Positions 15,530-25,250 of a stretch of DNA of 64,000 bases are shown here, one piece after another; within the stretch, counting starts at the first letter, position 1; every line of letters starts with the position of its first letter. Under the pieces are notes generated by a model, which was not told where the DNA came from, made no database searches, and saw only the letters and a program-made list of their open reading frames with translations. The position numbers were made by a program, and so were the translations under genes. The stretch is from positions 1 through 64,000 of the forward strand of contig JAFOOX010000049.1 in NCBI GenBank assembly GCA_017425245.1. Direction: 5' to 3'. The stretch is from Gammaproteobacteria bacterium (lineage in GTDB: Bacteria; Pseudomonadota; Gammaproteobacteria; Enterobacterales; Neiellaceae).

Positions 15530-16258
15530 ATGAGACAGGTAGTGTCACCCCCGCCCATTATTCCCTCGCCCCGGCCATCAAACCCAACAGCACTGGAGCT
15601 GGCCATCCACCGGTTTGAAGAACAGGCCAAGGCCTACCACTACGAGAAAACCAAGTTGGCGAAAGCCACGGGTCAACCCAGTGAGATCGCCAAAGCACGG
15701 GCCAAGCTGGATCGTGATTGGCAACATCTGCAGCGCGAGCGCATCCGCATCTCGACCCAGGCGCAGTTACAGAGCAGCCTCGAAGATTATCGGGCTGCCG
15801 CTAAACAGAAAACGGAAGAAGAGCTTCTGGCCGAACCTCACCATCCAACCAGGGTGCTTGCCCGTCACCTGACTGCCGTTGGCGAGCCCAAGCCAAGCCG
15901 TGATCACGACCCGCACCACATCATTGCTGGCAAAGGGCGTTTTAGACCTCGCGCCATGGAACAAGCGAGACTTGGGCTGCACATGCATGGCATCGGTATT
16001 AACGATGCCATCAATGGGGTGTGGTTGCCGCGCTCCAAGGCCGACAAAGGGCATTGGGCGACGCCAGAGTCACCTGCGCATCGCGAGATCCACAGACACA
16101 ACTATGAGATGTGGATCTGGAGGCTTTTCGGCAGCAACTCGCTGCCAGAAACCGTAGTCAAACAGCGGTTGAGAGTCGTGAAACTGAAACTGAGGCTCGG
16201 TGGCTACCCCAGCGAGATTGTTCAGCCTAAAGACCCGCAGAGGAGTGGCAACTCATGA
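15530..16258 (+). CDS. AHH-family nuclease toxin (HNH/Endo VII superfamily)
   Basis: A protein of 242 residues. A proline-rich start and a long charged helix (about residues 20-100, probably coiled coil) lead into a C-terminal domain. That domain has DHDPHHIIAGKGRF (histidines 129-130), a GIGINDAINGVWLP segment and AHREIHRHNY. This matches the AHH nuclease family of bacterial polymorphic toxins, which cleave DNA or RNA. There is no signal peptide, Rhs, PAAR or LXG delivery domain, so it is an orphan toxin or a cargo effector. AAGGAG precedes ATG 15530, and the stop overlaps the next start as ATGA. The downstream Imm11-like gene makes a toxin/immunity reading strong. Confidence 0.85.
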   Translation: MRQVVSPPPIIPSPRPSNPTALELAIHRFEEQAKAYHYEKTKLAKATGQPSEIAKARAKLDRDWQHLQRERIRISTQAQLQSSLEDYRAAAKQKTEEELLAEPHHPTRVLARHLTAVGEPKPSRDHDPHHIIAGKGRFRPRAMEQARLGLHMHGIGINDAINGVWLPRSKADKGHWATPESPAHREIHRHNYEMWIWRLFGSNSLPETVVKQRLRVVKLKLRLGGYPSEIVQPKDPQRSGNS

Positions 16259-16833
16259 GTGCCGCCTATCTGCTCAAAGAGGTGCCAGACCGCTTTTACG
16301 GCTCTTCGATTACCATCAGCGAGTTAGCTAAGCAGCTCGGTGGCGCTAATGGCATGCTACGACGGCTATTCCTGCAACCAGAGCAGAATGAGGCGATGGC
16401 CAGCTACTGGGGAACAGTCACTGACCACTGGATGAAGCGCTCCGCCACTAGCCACGAAAAGCCGGATATCTGTCTATGGGGCTCAGGGAGCTTGTTGCTC
16501 AACCTGCGGGCGTACAACGCGCTGCGAGAGCCGCTCAGCGGTCAGGGCGAGTTTCTGCCGATCACCGTCGACCTCGATCCGATGTATGTGTTCAACTGCC
16601 TGACGTGGGGCAAGGAGGACATGGGGTTAACGGAAACCCAGTACGTCGATGGCTACGAAGATGGCATCGCCACCCTGGCATTCGAGCCTGACGACATCGC
16701 CACCAAACTGGTGTTTAAGTCGAGGCTGGCGGGCGCCGGTTTGGTCTTTGTGTCGCATTCTTTTAAGGAACTGATCGAAGGTCACCAGCTGCAGGGGCTG
16801 CGCTTTGATGCTGACCTGATGAATCCGTTTTGA
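16255..16833 (+). CDS. Imm11-like (DUF1629) immunity protein
   Basis: A protein of 192 residues, translationally coupled to the toxin by an ATGA overlap. The segments PDICLWGSGSLLLNLRAYNAL, LREPLSGQGEFLPITVDLDPMYVFN, VFVSHSFKELIE and a final LQGLRFD match the Imm11 pattern, in which a 'leaves/sets state of' residue run is followed by a vFvSdaFk.li motif. Members are encoded directly after polymorphic toxins and neutralise them in the producing cell. It should bind and inhibit the AHH nuclease; that pairing is inferred from gene order and family. Confidence 0.8.
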   Translation: MSAAYLLKEVPDRFYGSSITISELAKQLGGANGMLRRLFLQPEQNEAMASYWGTVTDHWMKRSATSHEKPDICLWGSGSLLLNLRAYNALREPLSGQGEFLPITVDLDPMYVFNCLTWGKEDMGLTETQYVDGYEDGIATLAFEPDDIATKLVFKSRLAGAGLVFVSHSFKELIEGHQLQGLRFDADLMNPF

Positions 16834-16859: not shown

Positions 16860-17265
16860 ATCAAGGATATCCACCCCAACCACCAGCAGCAGCGCCGTAC
16901 TCCCATCCCTCCCCTTGATCACCACCCGCACTGTGCCAGCTAACCCACGGCCGGCTGGGCGTAGGGGGCGAGCTGGCATGGATGCCAGCGAGAGCAAATC
17001 TGGGCAGGACAGCCCATATTTGCGACCCCGTAGCCCGGCAGAACCTTCGTCAGTAATAGATGGTGGTGATCTCGGGGGCCGACAGGGTTCGCCAAGGGAG
17101 GGTTCGGCGACCCTTCCTTGGCTCGTCGTGTGGGCGCGAAAGCCCACTCCAGGCGGCGCAGCCGCATCGGCCGCGTAGCGGCATTCAAACCCCCAGCGCG
17201 AGGCGGGGAGCCTCGCATTCTGCCGCCACGCAGTGGCACGCCAGCGGCGCAGCCGCGATCCCGCG
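16860..17265 (+). repeat. island repeat copy R3
   Basis: The third copy. It begins with CAAGGATATCCACCCCAACC, and the core is 16911-17265. The core is collinear with R4's core, 355 bases each at a fixed offset of 456 bases, and differs at about 23 positions by eye. Hairpins of the 5-GCA/GTA-5 form lie at 17153-17165, 17170-17182, 17225-17237 and 17244-17256. A larger stem, GGGTTCGCCAAGGGAGGGTT with CGGCGACCC, is also present. No gene is supported in this copy; the long minus-strand frame across R3 and R4 looks like a by-product of GC-rich repeats. Confidence 0.85.
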
Positions 17266-17280
17266 GCACCATTGGGACAT

Positions 17281-17751
17281 CCATCCCTGCTATCAGTAAC
17301 ACCTTGTATTTCCGCCGTTTGAGCACCAGCGAGATCACCGAGCAGAGCGGCACAATCAATCTCTAACCCCTTGATCACCACCCGCACCACGCCAGCTATC
17401 CCACGGCCAGCTGGGCGGAGGGGTTGAGCTGGCAGGGATGCCAGCGAAAGCAAATCTGGGCAGGACAGTCCATATTTGCGACCCCGTAGCCCGGCAGAAC
17501 GACAGCCAGATATGGATGGTGGTGATCTTGGGGGCCGACAGGGTTCGCTAAGGGAGGGTTCGGCGACCCTTCCTTGGCTCGTCGTATGGGCGCGAAAGCC
17601 CACTCCAGGCGGCGCAGCCGCATCGGCCGCGTAGCGGCATTCAAACCCCCGGCGCGAGGCGGGGAGCCTCGCATTCTGCCGCCACGCAGTGGCACGCCAG
17701 CGGCGCAGCCGCGATCCCGCGCCGCAGGCGCATCTGCCGCCGCGCAGCGGC
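17281..17751 (+). repeat. island repeat copy R4
   Basis: The fourth copy. An upstream module, ATCCATCCCTGC with CCGTTTGAGCACCAGCGAGA (also inside R2), leads into the 355-base core at 17367-17721. It carries six 13-base hairpins: 17609-17621, 17626-17638, 17681-17693, 17700-17712, 17719-17731 and 17739-17751. It ends within ten bases of the mog stop codon. The whole 16834-17759 gap is R3 plus R4 with no convincing coding region. Confidence 0.85.
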
Positions 17752-21771: not shown

Positions 21772-22713
21772 TCAGTTACTGGCGTGGCTGGACCGCTCGC
21801 GGCTCAGCCAGCGTTGGTAGCGCTCGGTGCTGAACCACAGCGCTGTTTCGCTCAGCGGCAGGGTGGTTGGGGCCAGCGGGTTAGTCAGCGGCAAGGCTCG
21901 CCGCTGGCTGATATTGGCCTGCTGCAGCGCCTGACGATGGGGCGGAAAACCGAACAGCAGATCATCAAAGCGCCCATCAGCCAGCAGCCGTCGCAACCCG
22001 ACTTCAATGCGATTGGCCAGCAGATCATTGTTCTTGCCAACAAAAAAATACATGGCAGTGGGATAGGCGAGCAGCAATTTGTCTTCCACCACCAGCGAGG
22101 GCCGGCGATGAAACGCCTGCTCCTGCCACGCCTCTAGCACGCCACGGGCGAAGTAATCGCAAAAGCCGTTATGGACGAAACGGTACATCGCCATCAGGTC
22201 GCCCTCGGCCTGCACCGCCAGACCGTTGGCCTGCAGAATGGGCAGATCTGGCCAGTCGTGGCCCTGTACGCCGCGAAAACGGGCCAGCTGGTCAAGGCGG
22301 GTAACACCGCCAAAATCCGGCGCCTGATGATGACGGACCACCAGCACCCGATAACCAATGAGGCCGGCGGTCAAGGGGATGCGGATCGGCCGCGCCTCGG
22401 CTTCACGCTCGACGGAGGTCATGGTCCACATCACATTGATGTTGCCGCGCGCCACCAGCTTGAGTACCCGCCCCTGATGGGCCGGGGCATAGACGGGGCG
22501 CAGCTGCCAGGGGCCGAACTGGTCTTCGCTGGCGACCAGCGCCTGGCGCAGCAGCTCAAGATAGTAGGTGCTATGCAGTTCACTGCGATCAGCGGGAATG
22601 TAGCGAATGATGGTGGTGGGTGGCGGCACCGCCTGGGTAATGCTCGCCCACAGCAGCAGCATGGCACCAAGCCAGCTGCTGCCGGGGCCGCCCCAGCGAT
22701 GGCGGCTCAGCAC
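21772..22713 (-). CDS. periplasmic binding-protein-like protein
   Basis: A protein of about 313 residues with a signal peptide (WLGAMLLLWASITQA) and the fold outline of extracellular solute-binding family 3 proteins. Its features are an early YYLELLRQALVASEDQFGPW, a central YRVLVVRHH, VQGHDWPDLPILQANG, and a hinge-like YPTAMYFFVGKNN. No permease or ATPase lies nearby, so import is unlikely. A sensing or regulatory role is possible. I use GTG 22713, which begins four bases after the stop of the tubulin-like gene; the longer ATG at 22773 would overlap that gene by 56 bases. The pair should be one transcript. Confidence 0.65.
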   Translation of the reverse strand: MLSRHRWGGPGSSWLGAMLLLWASITQAVPPPTTIIRYIPADRSELHSTYYLELLRQALVASEDQFGPWQLRPVYAPAHQGRVLKLVARGNINVMWTMTSVEREAEARPIRIPLTAGLIGYRVLVVRHHQAPDFGGVTRLDQLARFRGVQGHDWPDLPILQANGLAVQAEGDLMAMYRFVHNGFCDYFARGVLEAWQEQAFHRRPSLVVEDKLLLAYPTAMYFFVGKNNDLLANRIEVGLRRLLADGRFDDLLFGFPPHRQALQQANISQRRALPLTNPLAPTTLPLSETALWFSTERYQRWLSRERSSHASN

Positions 22714-22717
22714 GGGC

Positions 22718-24985
22718 TCAGTGGTTGAGGCTGAGGATGCGCACACGGCTGATGCGGTGGCGATAGATTTCACGCAGGTAGCGCACCGCCTTCTTGATGT
22801 TGTCTGACGACAGACGGATGTCGTTGATCGAGATGAAGCGCTCCTTGTCGCGGATCAGCTCTCGATATTTCTTTTCGTACATCGGTTTGATGGCAAACCA
22901 GTTGGTATCAAGGATCTTGGCCGGGTTCTCGAAGGTGTTGACCAGCTCGTCGATGCGCGCCTCGTCATACTCGTCACAGGTGATTAGGTCGAGGATCGCC
23001 TTGTCGAGTTTGTCGTCGAAGCGGTACTCGTCGCGGGCAAAGCAGCGCTTGATGTAGGCCACGATCAGGGTCAGGAAGTCATCGGACAGACAGGGGCTCT
23101 TGGCCACCAGGGTAGTCAGCGACAGGTTGGCCGAGGCCCCAATCACCAGCGCGTAGCGCTTTAAGGTGGTGTTGGGGAACAGGTTATTCAGGTGGTTCTT
23201 GAGGCGGTTGAGATCCACATAGCTGAGCTTGTAGTCCTTGGGCAGCGACACAATCGACACCACTGACGAGCAGTTCTTGAAGAAGTGCAGTTCGCGCAGC
23301 GGCGTGGCATCGAAGTTGTGGTCGCGATAGAGACGCAGCGCCTCACGGTAGCGGTGACTCTCTACCGGCAGCAAGCTGATCCCTTCAATCGCACGGGTCT
23401 GGCGATTGAAGTGGGGTAACTCGATGGAGCGCAGGAACAGATCGTCGATATCAATGGCACCGCCGTTGGCGCCATTCGCACCATTGGTTGCGCGTAGCCG
23501 GTCGCTGCTGCTGGCATCGGGGATCACGCTTTCGGCATAGGCGATAGCCACCGGCCCGGCCAAGCTCATAAACAAATCGTTGGCATCGAGACGGATAGTT
23601 TCGCCGATGTCGATGCCGGCGCGGCGGAAATACTGCTCGTCGTAGTCGGTGGTCACCGCCTGGGCGGTGAGGATGTTAAAGATCTGCTGAGAGATGTACT
23701 GGTTGGCGTATTTCTCCATGGCATTGACGTCGATATCGCGGGCGTGGCCCTCATCGCTCTCTTCGGCATAGCGCATGATGTCGTTGGAGATCAGCATCAT
23801 GGCATTCCAGGGGCGGATGCGGGCGAGGACATTGGCCTCACTGTCACGGGCGTCATCGGTGTTGTAGCTGAAGTCCCATTCTTCCGACAGATACTTGCAC
23901 AGCAGGCGGCCGGCGTTGATGTGCAACGCCTCGGACAGCTCCACCTTGTTGTCGGTGATGTTGGGCAGGATGCAGATACCGCTGGTGAAGATCGGCTCGA
24001 ACACGAAGGAGTGGCGACGGTCGTCATCTTCCTCCGGCTTCACCTCAAAGGTCTTGCTCAGGTAGGCGTACTGCTGGGCCAGGCCGAACTCTGAGGCCAT
24101 GCCCGAGCCGGTACCGCCGCCAGCGCTGAAGATGTAGAAATAGAGCCGCGACTGGTTGGCCTTGATGCCGCAGGAATCGACCAGATAGGCGTGGACGTCA
24201 CGCCAGGTCGGGGCATTGAACTTCTCGGTCTCACGGTTGAGGATGATCTTGGCCAGATACTGGCCGAGGATCGGCGCGTTACCGGCACCGCCAGCATGCA
24301 CTTCCGACAGATCCATCACCTTCATCTTGCGGTAATCGCTCAGGAAGTTGTTGTTCTGCATATGGCCGGAGAAACGGATGCGGCCAGTGATGTCCTTGTC
24401 GAGGTCGCCGAGCATGACGATCGGCTCGATCAGAAATACCGGATGGATGCGGTTACCAGGCAGATGGAGCTGGCGGCGGATCCAGCGCACCGGGCCACTG
24501 TCACTCTCGGCCTTCTTGCGCTCCTGATCCTGCACCTCGTTGAGATAGAAGAGGCGGGCGTTGTAGACCAGGGTGGCCACTTCCAGTGCCACGTTGGAAC
24601 CGCAGCGACCAAGGCCGATCAGGCAGACCGAGGGGAAACAGCGGTCGTTGATCGGCACCGTGTCATCTTCGCCGCGCGACTGGTAGATCTCGCTGCGCAA
24701 GGTGTCGAGGCTCTCTAAAATCCGGTCGAGGTTTTTCTCGACGTAATAAAGGTGCTGTGGTCGCTCCTGCGGGTCGATGCTGGCGATGGCAGCCGGGCTG
24801 GTATCCACCACTTTCTTGGTTATCACCACGGCGCCGGGGCCATTGCTAACCCCATGGGCCAGCGGACTGCTGGTAACCGGCGTCGGATGGCTGGTGGCCG
24901 CAGGGGCCGGTTGCTGATGCGTCTCCTGGCGTGTACCCATGTCCTGCTCCGGTTTGCGTGCCATTGGTCGGGCCTGCTCGTCCAT
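22718..24985 (-). CDS. divergent tubulin/FtsZ-superfamily GTPase
   Basis: A 755-residue protein carrying the nucleotide-binding loops of tubulin/FtsZ proteins in order: GLGRCGSN (residues 124-131, T1), AGGAGN (231-236, T3), the signature SAGGGTGSG (287-295, T4), and IRLDANDLF (464-472) with D467 and D470 in the place of the T7 synergy loop. It is much longer than FtsZ: about 110 disordered residues precede the GTPase, and about 280 helical, charged residues follow it. GTP-dependent polymerisation is expected from the loops but not proven. It is not the cell-division FtsZ: it is too long, has no C-terminal ZipA/FtsA peptide, and is outside the division cluster. A 2010 comparative study by Makarova and Koonin, recalled from memory, described FtsZ-like families, one restricted to Proteobacteria. 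Membership is untested. Confidence 0.85.
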   Translation of the reverse strand: MDEQARPMARKPEQDMGTRQETHQQPAPAATSHPTPVTSSPLAHGVSNGPGAVVITKKVVDTSPAAIASIDPQERPQHLYYVEKNLDRILESLDTLRSEIYQSRGEDDTVPINDRCFPSVCLIGLGRCGSNVALEVATLVYNARLFYLNEVQDQERKKAESDSGPVRWIRRQLHLPGNRIHPVFLIEPIVMLGDLDKDITGRIRFSGHMQNNNFLSDYRKMKVMDLSEVHAGGAGNAPILGQYLAKIILNRETEKFNAPTWRDVHAYLVDSCGIKANQSRLYFYIFSAGGGTGSGMASEFGLAQQYAYLSKTFEVKPEEDDDRRHSFVFEPIFTSGICILPNITDNKVELSEALHINAGRLLCKYLSEEWDFSYNTDDARDSEANVLARIRPWNAMMLISNDIMRYAEESDEGHARDIDVNAMEKYANQYISQQIFNILTAQAVTTDYDEQYFRRAGIDIGETIRLDANDLFMSLAGPVAIAYAESVIPDASSSDRLRATNGANGANGGAIDIDDLFLRSIELPHFNRQTRAIEGISLLPVESHRYREALRLYRDHNFDATPLRELHFFKNCSSVVSIVSLPKDYKLSYVDLNRLKNHLNNLFPNTTLKRYALVIGASANLSLTTLVAKSPCLSDDFLTLIVAYIKRCFARDEYRFDDKLDKAILDLITCDEYDEARIDELVNTFENPAKILDTNWFAIKPMYEKKYRELIRDKERFISINDIRLSSDNIKKAVRYLREIYRHRISRVRILSLNH

Positions 24986-25094: not shown

Positions 25095-25250
25095 TCATGC
25101 GGCTAACGATTCGACCAGTGGCGGCAGCCCATGGCGGGCCCGCGCCTGCTGGCTGCGCGCGTCGCCAGCGGCGAATTCACGGCAGGGTGAAGGCCGGTTG
25201 GCATAGCAGGCGCCGCAACTCAGGCACGGGTGTGGTGTTGATTCAGCCAT
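25095..25250 (-). pseudogene. internally deleted YkgJ-type cysteine-cluster protein
   Basis: A short frame of 51 residues that joins the N-terminal cluster motif CLSCGACYAN directly to RPSPCREFAAGDARSQQARARHGLPPL. In complete YkgJ-type (zinc/iron cluster) proteins these two blocks are separated by roughly 60 residues with further cysteines, the first motif ends in CC and the second contains ...C-N-x-AR. Here the middle is missing and two expected cysteines are Y and S. There is no clear ribosome binding site. I read it as an in-frame internal deletion remnant; an unusual small functional protein is possible. Nothing else is seen between 24986 and 25387. Confidence 0.5.

Follow-up and report, generated by a model that had tools for sequence, protein, structure and literature searches.

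The window analyzed here, a stretch of 64,000 nucleotides from a Neiellaceae genome, encodes an FtsZ-like protein of 755 residues, whose nucleotide loops, flanking regions, and downstream neighbor are located in Table 1. All four loops that the original prediction had read in this protein, GLGRCGSN, AGGAGN, SAGGGTGSG, and LDANDL, are present, and a T6 loop that it had not listed, LISNDIM, can be added to them. The loops follow one another as T1, T3, T4, T6, and T7, which is the tubulin/FtsZ order, and the genome's own canonical FtsZ (L001) carries GVGGGGGN, GLGAGANPDVG, GMGGGTGTG, TIPNDKL, and NVDFADV at the equivalent points.

Table 1. Positions in the window of the FtsZ-like gene, its sequence features, and the adjoining gene.
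Feature	Position	Strand	Basis
FtsZl2-type FtsZ-like protein, 755 aa	22718..24985, stop codon included	-	ATG-start ORF, homologues, and 66-row alignment
Variable, lineage-specific N-terminal extension, residues 1-76	24758..24985	-	Alignment; missing in several relatives, which start near residue 73
T1-like loop GLGRCGSN, residues 124-131	24593..24616	-	G, G, R, C, G, S, and N invariant in 66/66
T3-like loop HAGGAGNAPILG, residues 230-241, containing AGGAGN (231-236)	24263..24298	-	Position of FtsZ T3
T4 signature loop SAGGGTGSG, residues 287-295	24101..24127	-	Fully invariant in 66/66
T6-like loop LISNDIM, residues 398-404	23774..23794	-	N401 and D402 invariant in 66 homologues
H7-like helix region, residues 419-445	23651..23731	-	A427 and N428 invariant; H7 placed by position only
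T7-like loop LDANDL, residues 466-471, with candidate catalytic Asp467 and Asp470	23573..23590	-	D467, N469, and D470 invariant in 66/66
Conserved C-terminal region, about 284 residues after T7	22721..23572	-	Alignment; low-confidence model gives beta-alpha-beta-beta at 574-628, then mainly helical
Exported binding-protein-like gene, downstream neighbor	21772..22713	-	GTG start at 22713; signal-peptide-like N-terminus

The ORF is genuine, intact, and under strong purifying selection. Its dN/dS is 0.044 (0.018/0.408) in comparison with the nearest homologue, from a Corallincola MAG, with which it shares 97% protein identity. The flanks had been described as long and unassigned, which holds in part: the first ~76 residues vary, whereas the ~285 residues that follow T7 show conservation similar to that of the remainder of the protein. 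Over the core, conservation of the FtsZ-like protein is higher than that of FtsZ for two of the three species pairs compared (74.6 versus 67.9% and 68.1 versus 60.4%) and lower for the third (61.8 versus 70.2%). Elsewhere in the window, positions 15530–16833 of the plus strand encode an AHH-type nuclease (PF14412) immediately followed by an Imm11-like protein, just below cut-off, which together form a candidate toxin-immunity pair, and positions 16911–17666 hold a 300-base direct repeat in two copies that are 92% identical and 456 bases apart.

FtsZ and tubulin form head-to-tail polymers in which the T7 loop of one subunit acts on the GTP of the next. The original prediction had named a lack of T4 and T7 conservation as grounds for refutation, and the key residues of both loops are invariant in all 66 homologues; judged from the alignment, the invariant T7 aspartates favor a polymer over a monomeric switch. 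The alternative is a GTP-binding protein with a tubulin fold that has lost the ability to form filaments and serves, as a monomer or dimer, as a switch or scaffold. Such a protein would be in keeping with the T1–T4 spacing of about 163 residues, which compared with 86 in the genome's own FtsZ points to large family-specific inserts, with the large extra C-terminal region, and with Arg465, an invariant residue that stands where FtsZ T7 has Asn. It would, however, have no clear need for two acidic residues in T7 that never vary, and we regard it as rather unlikely.

Profile searches place the protein near the tubulin superfamily, if below the curated thresholds. No Pfam or NCBIfam model reached its cut-off for the ORF, the scores being 16.7 bits with PF00091 (cut-off 33 bits) and 11.2 bits with PF13809, Tubulin_2 (cut-off 27; 12.2–15.5 bits in ten other members), and the ~284 residues after T7 had no Pfam match above cut-off. 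The proposed HMM check thus came out mixed: neither cut-off was reached in any member whose score was listed, but both PF00091 and PF13809 match 66 of 66 members at E ≤ 1, and every other family matches fewer than half, with the qualification that the 66 members are mutually related, so that their matches are not independent tests. In two members (L159 and L163), PF00091 matches best over the T1 end of the profile, and in the others over T4. The Tubulin_2 matches are collinear, extend over up to 174 residues, and reach residue 330 of one trimmed protein (L019). In hhalign comparisons with FtsZ, only the T4 loop aligned, and the score was no better than that of reversed controls, which score equally because the T4 loop is nearly palindromic. 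When T4 was masked in a family HMM, FtsZ failed to score higher than decoys. Two AlphaFold runs, one with 10 sequences at full length and one with 66 sequences over residues 76–755, gave pLDDT values of 37 and 45, respectively. The second, low-confidence model has mixed secondary structure in the C-terminal region, including a strand-helix-strand-strand element at 574–628, an order also seen in the C-terminal domain of FtsZ. A Foldseek search with this model returned no match at E ≤ 0.001, and no solved structure was matched by the family profile in a sequence search.

A non-tubulin nucleotide-binding protein that carries a glycine-rich loop by chance would account for the fact that the T4 region alone is statistically visible in the profile tests, and for fold models of low confidence. 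It is nevertheless a very improbable reading: five loops stand in the correct order, the T1 and T4 ends of PF00091 are matched in different members, and an HHpred E value of 0.0033 has been published for a family that is in all likelihood the same one (PMC2875224). A tubulin fold is thus supported by the motifs together with the published HHpred result, and the loop order and invariant key residues likewise support the original call of a divergent tubulin/FtsZ-superfamily GTPase distinct from canonical FtsZ. Its placement outside the division cluster was correct, with canonical FtsZ encoded on a different contig (G000:C24) from the window (C30), which rules out the 755-residue protein as the division FtsZ of this genome. 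Canonical FtsZ is also present in four further genomes that have an FtsZ-like member. In Pseudomonas piscis, which has an FtsZ-like member (L047), PF00091 detects FtsZ, and its sole other match is a noise frame that runs antisense to a TonB receptor.

When one genome was scanned for each GTDB species, relatives of the FtsZ-like protein were encoded at 508 places, in the genomes of about 500 species. The best 80 of the 508 belong to Corallincola, Neiella, Pseudomonas, Rheinheimera, Alkalimonas, Arsukibacterium, Alishewanella, Cellvibrio, a Halomonadaceae MAG, and a few gammaproteobacterial MAGs; P. piscis and P. fluorescens are among the species with a relative. The gene is accessory and patchy in distribution, occurring in all six other sampled genomes of its own family, in 31 of 385 of its own order, and in only 2 of 369 in an even sample of the class, its own genome counted. 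Two genomes, G015 (L014–L017, L107, and L116) and G1154 (contig C55), retain nothing but a decayed copy with several stop codons, and the gene is therefore dispensable there. No match to the gene was found in Escherichia coli at the nucleotide level, and no betaproteobacterial member was found through the one candidate order searched. Plasmid, phage, and viral-contig collections hold no relative, so that an origin from any of these was rejected, as was a role in anti-phage defense, for which no PADLOC model matched. Another genome, G917, which has both FtsZ and a member of the family, encodes in addition another divergent FtsZ/tubulin-like protein, 400 residues long (L135:988-2190, minus strand), with the motifs SAGGGTGSG and INTNTQ and weak similarity to a protein of Bacillus phage G.

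In the tree of FtsZ-like proteins, sequences from f211, a family belonging to a different order, nest inside those from f10, a family within the order of the window. Topology tests reject both the own-order sequences as a single clade (p-AU = 1.4e-5) and f10 held together (p-AU = 0.0026), values that are somewhat optimistic since the tested clades were picked after the first tree had been seen. The phylogeny makes transfer of the gene from one order to another very probable, and the gene appears to have moved alone.

The neighbors of the gene in the window are the binding-like gene at 21772 and genes for an MscK-like channel, a Sel1-repeat protein, and an HTH_43 protein. The original prediction had the FtsZ-like protein co-encoded with the binding-type protein, which is so in the window, where the latter can start 5 bases past the FtsZ-like stop, but is not so elsewhere beyond the Corallincola relative. 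The product of the 21772 gene matched no Pfam or NCBIfam model and had no meaningful match to a solved structure; its family has four matches in the window's own genome and, in relatives from the same family, as many as 19 paralogues in a single genome. Across 31 loci spread over the lineages, no neighbor is common to most: the FtsZ-like gene is accompanied by putative electron-transfer-flavoprotein genes in Rheinheimera and Alkalimonas and, in Pseudomonas, by genes for a putative dehydrogenase and a putative MHYT-type protein (all names read from sequence). In Cellvibrio, and likewise within the window's own family, the neighboring genes are unrelated. On the minus strand of the window, positions 25098–25250 hold what is left of a YkgJ-type cysteine-cluster gene, its two ends joined in frame around an internal deletion of ~60 codons. 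The Corallincola MAG has an intact 111-residue YkgJ-type gene 109 bases upstream of its FtsZ-like gene. As a partner this gene was rejected, being kilobases away in some Pseudomonas and not found at the other loci. Because the FtsZ-like gene moves between orders without a constant partner, its product probably acts by itself or together with a host component that all carriers possess.

These results bear directly on the earlier proposal of a filament tied to an envelope sensor, a two-gene system in which the downstream periplasmic binding-type protein controls the filament. That scheme is hardly tenable, for while the genes are consecutive, on the same strand, and overlapping or nearly touching in the window and the Corallincola MAG, the suggested check on conservation found no pair in Neiella or any other lineage examined, binding-like homologues from a large paralogous set lie far away even within the same family, and contact between a cytoplasmic and a periplasmic protein needs a membrane link, none of which is encoded with the pair.

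The best reading of the sequence is that the 755-residue protein belongs to FtsZ-like 2 (FtsZl2), a family described in 2010 by Makarova and Koonin in Pseudomonas and other Proteobacteria with PFL_1302 of Pseudomonas fluorescens Pf-5 as its type member (PMC2875224), the assignment being made by match to the published description of the family. As described, FtsZl2 has the signature GGGTG(S/T)G, T1, T4, T6, and T7 loops with H7, inserts between T1 and T4, and a mixed alpha/beta C-terminal region, ~300 residues long, that resembles no other family; it lacks a coiled-coil domain, co-occurs with FtsZ, is found in the P. fluorescens group and other Proteobacteria, and has no conserved gene neighborhood (PMC2875224). 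The present protein shares the proteobacterial host, the loops and H7, the T1–T4 inserts, a C-terminus of that length, FtsZ alongside, and the lack of fixed neighbors, and a comparison by published description found no difference. The family was thus already named in 2010, and the protein studied here adds a member. The 2010 description is the only account that our literature search returned, with no experiment on FtsZl2 found. What the present analysis contributes beyond that account is the transfer of a single gene across orders, the pseudogenes, the invariant T7 residues, and the variable, dispensable N-terminal extension.

We consider it likely, although well short of certain, that this FtsZl2 member is a self-sufficient cytoplasmic GTPase that forms a GTP-dependent filament outside division and has no dedicated operon partner. 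In the mechanism that we propose, GTP would be held in a pocket formed by T1, T3, T4, and T6, and monomers would stack head to tail such that D467 and D470 of T7 complete the GTPase site of the neighboring subunit. Hydrolysis of GTP would then drive turnover of the filament, and it could differ from that of FtsZ or be weak owing to the presence of Arg465 in place of the T7 Asn. The long conserved C-terminal region may provide the filament's specific surface or its contact with cargo, and the task served, which we would guess to be spatial or structural, may be an optional one. A role outside division is probable, given a separate FtsZ in the genome and the accessory, dispensable nature of the gene. 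A broader proposal, which we advance only tentatively, is that FtsZl2 proteins as a group build a stand-alone bacterial tubulin-type filament that serves neither division nor the segregation of DNA but a new cellular task, and that their gene travels by itself from one gammaproteobacterial order to another. The degree of conservation of FtsZl2 is close to that of FtsZ, and the family is present in common laboratory genera such as Pseudomonas; if it polymerizes, ordinary bacteria would contain another cytoskeletal filament. The synteny result, with which the envelope-sensor idea is dropped, suggests that the single gene is enough to study.

Other members of the tubulin superfamily differ from the protein in several respects. 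TubZ and PhuZ are divergent tubulin-superfamily GTPases of plasmids and phages that act outside division, whereas the 755-residue protein is a chromosomal orphan and has no relative in the mobile-element and viral collections mentioned above. FtsZ-like 1 (Tubulin_2, PF13809) shares the T4 loop and has weak matches in all 66 members; however, T6 and T7 are not readable in that family and are readable here, the scored members fall below the PF13809 cut-off, and the VWA, kinase, and GTPase genes that partner FtsZl1 are missing beside the gene in the window. With FtsZ itself (PF00091), the protein has in common the order of the nucleotide loops, the GGGTG of T4, and the DxxD of T7, but it scores below the PF00091 cut-off, is twice as long, is accessory, and carries Arg in place of the T7 Asn.
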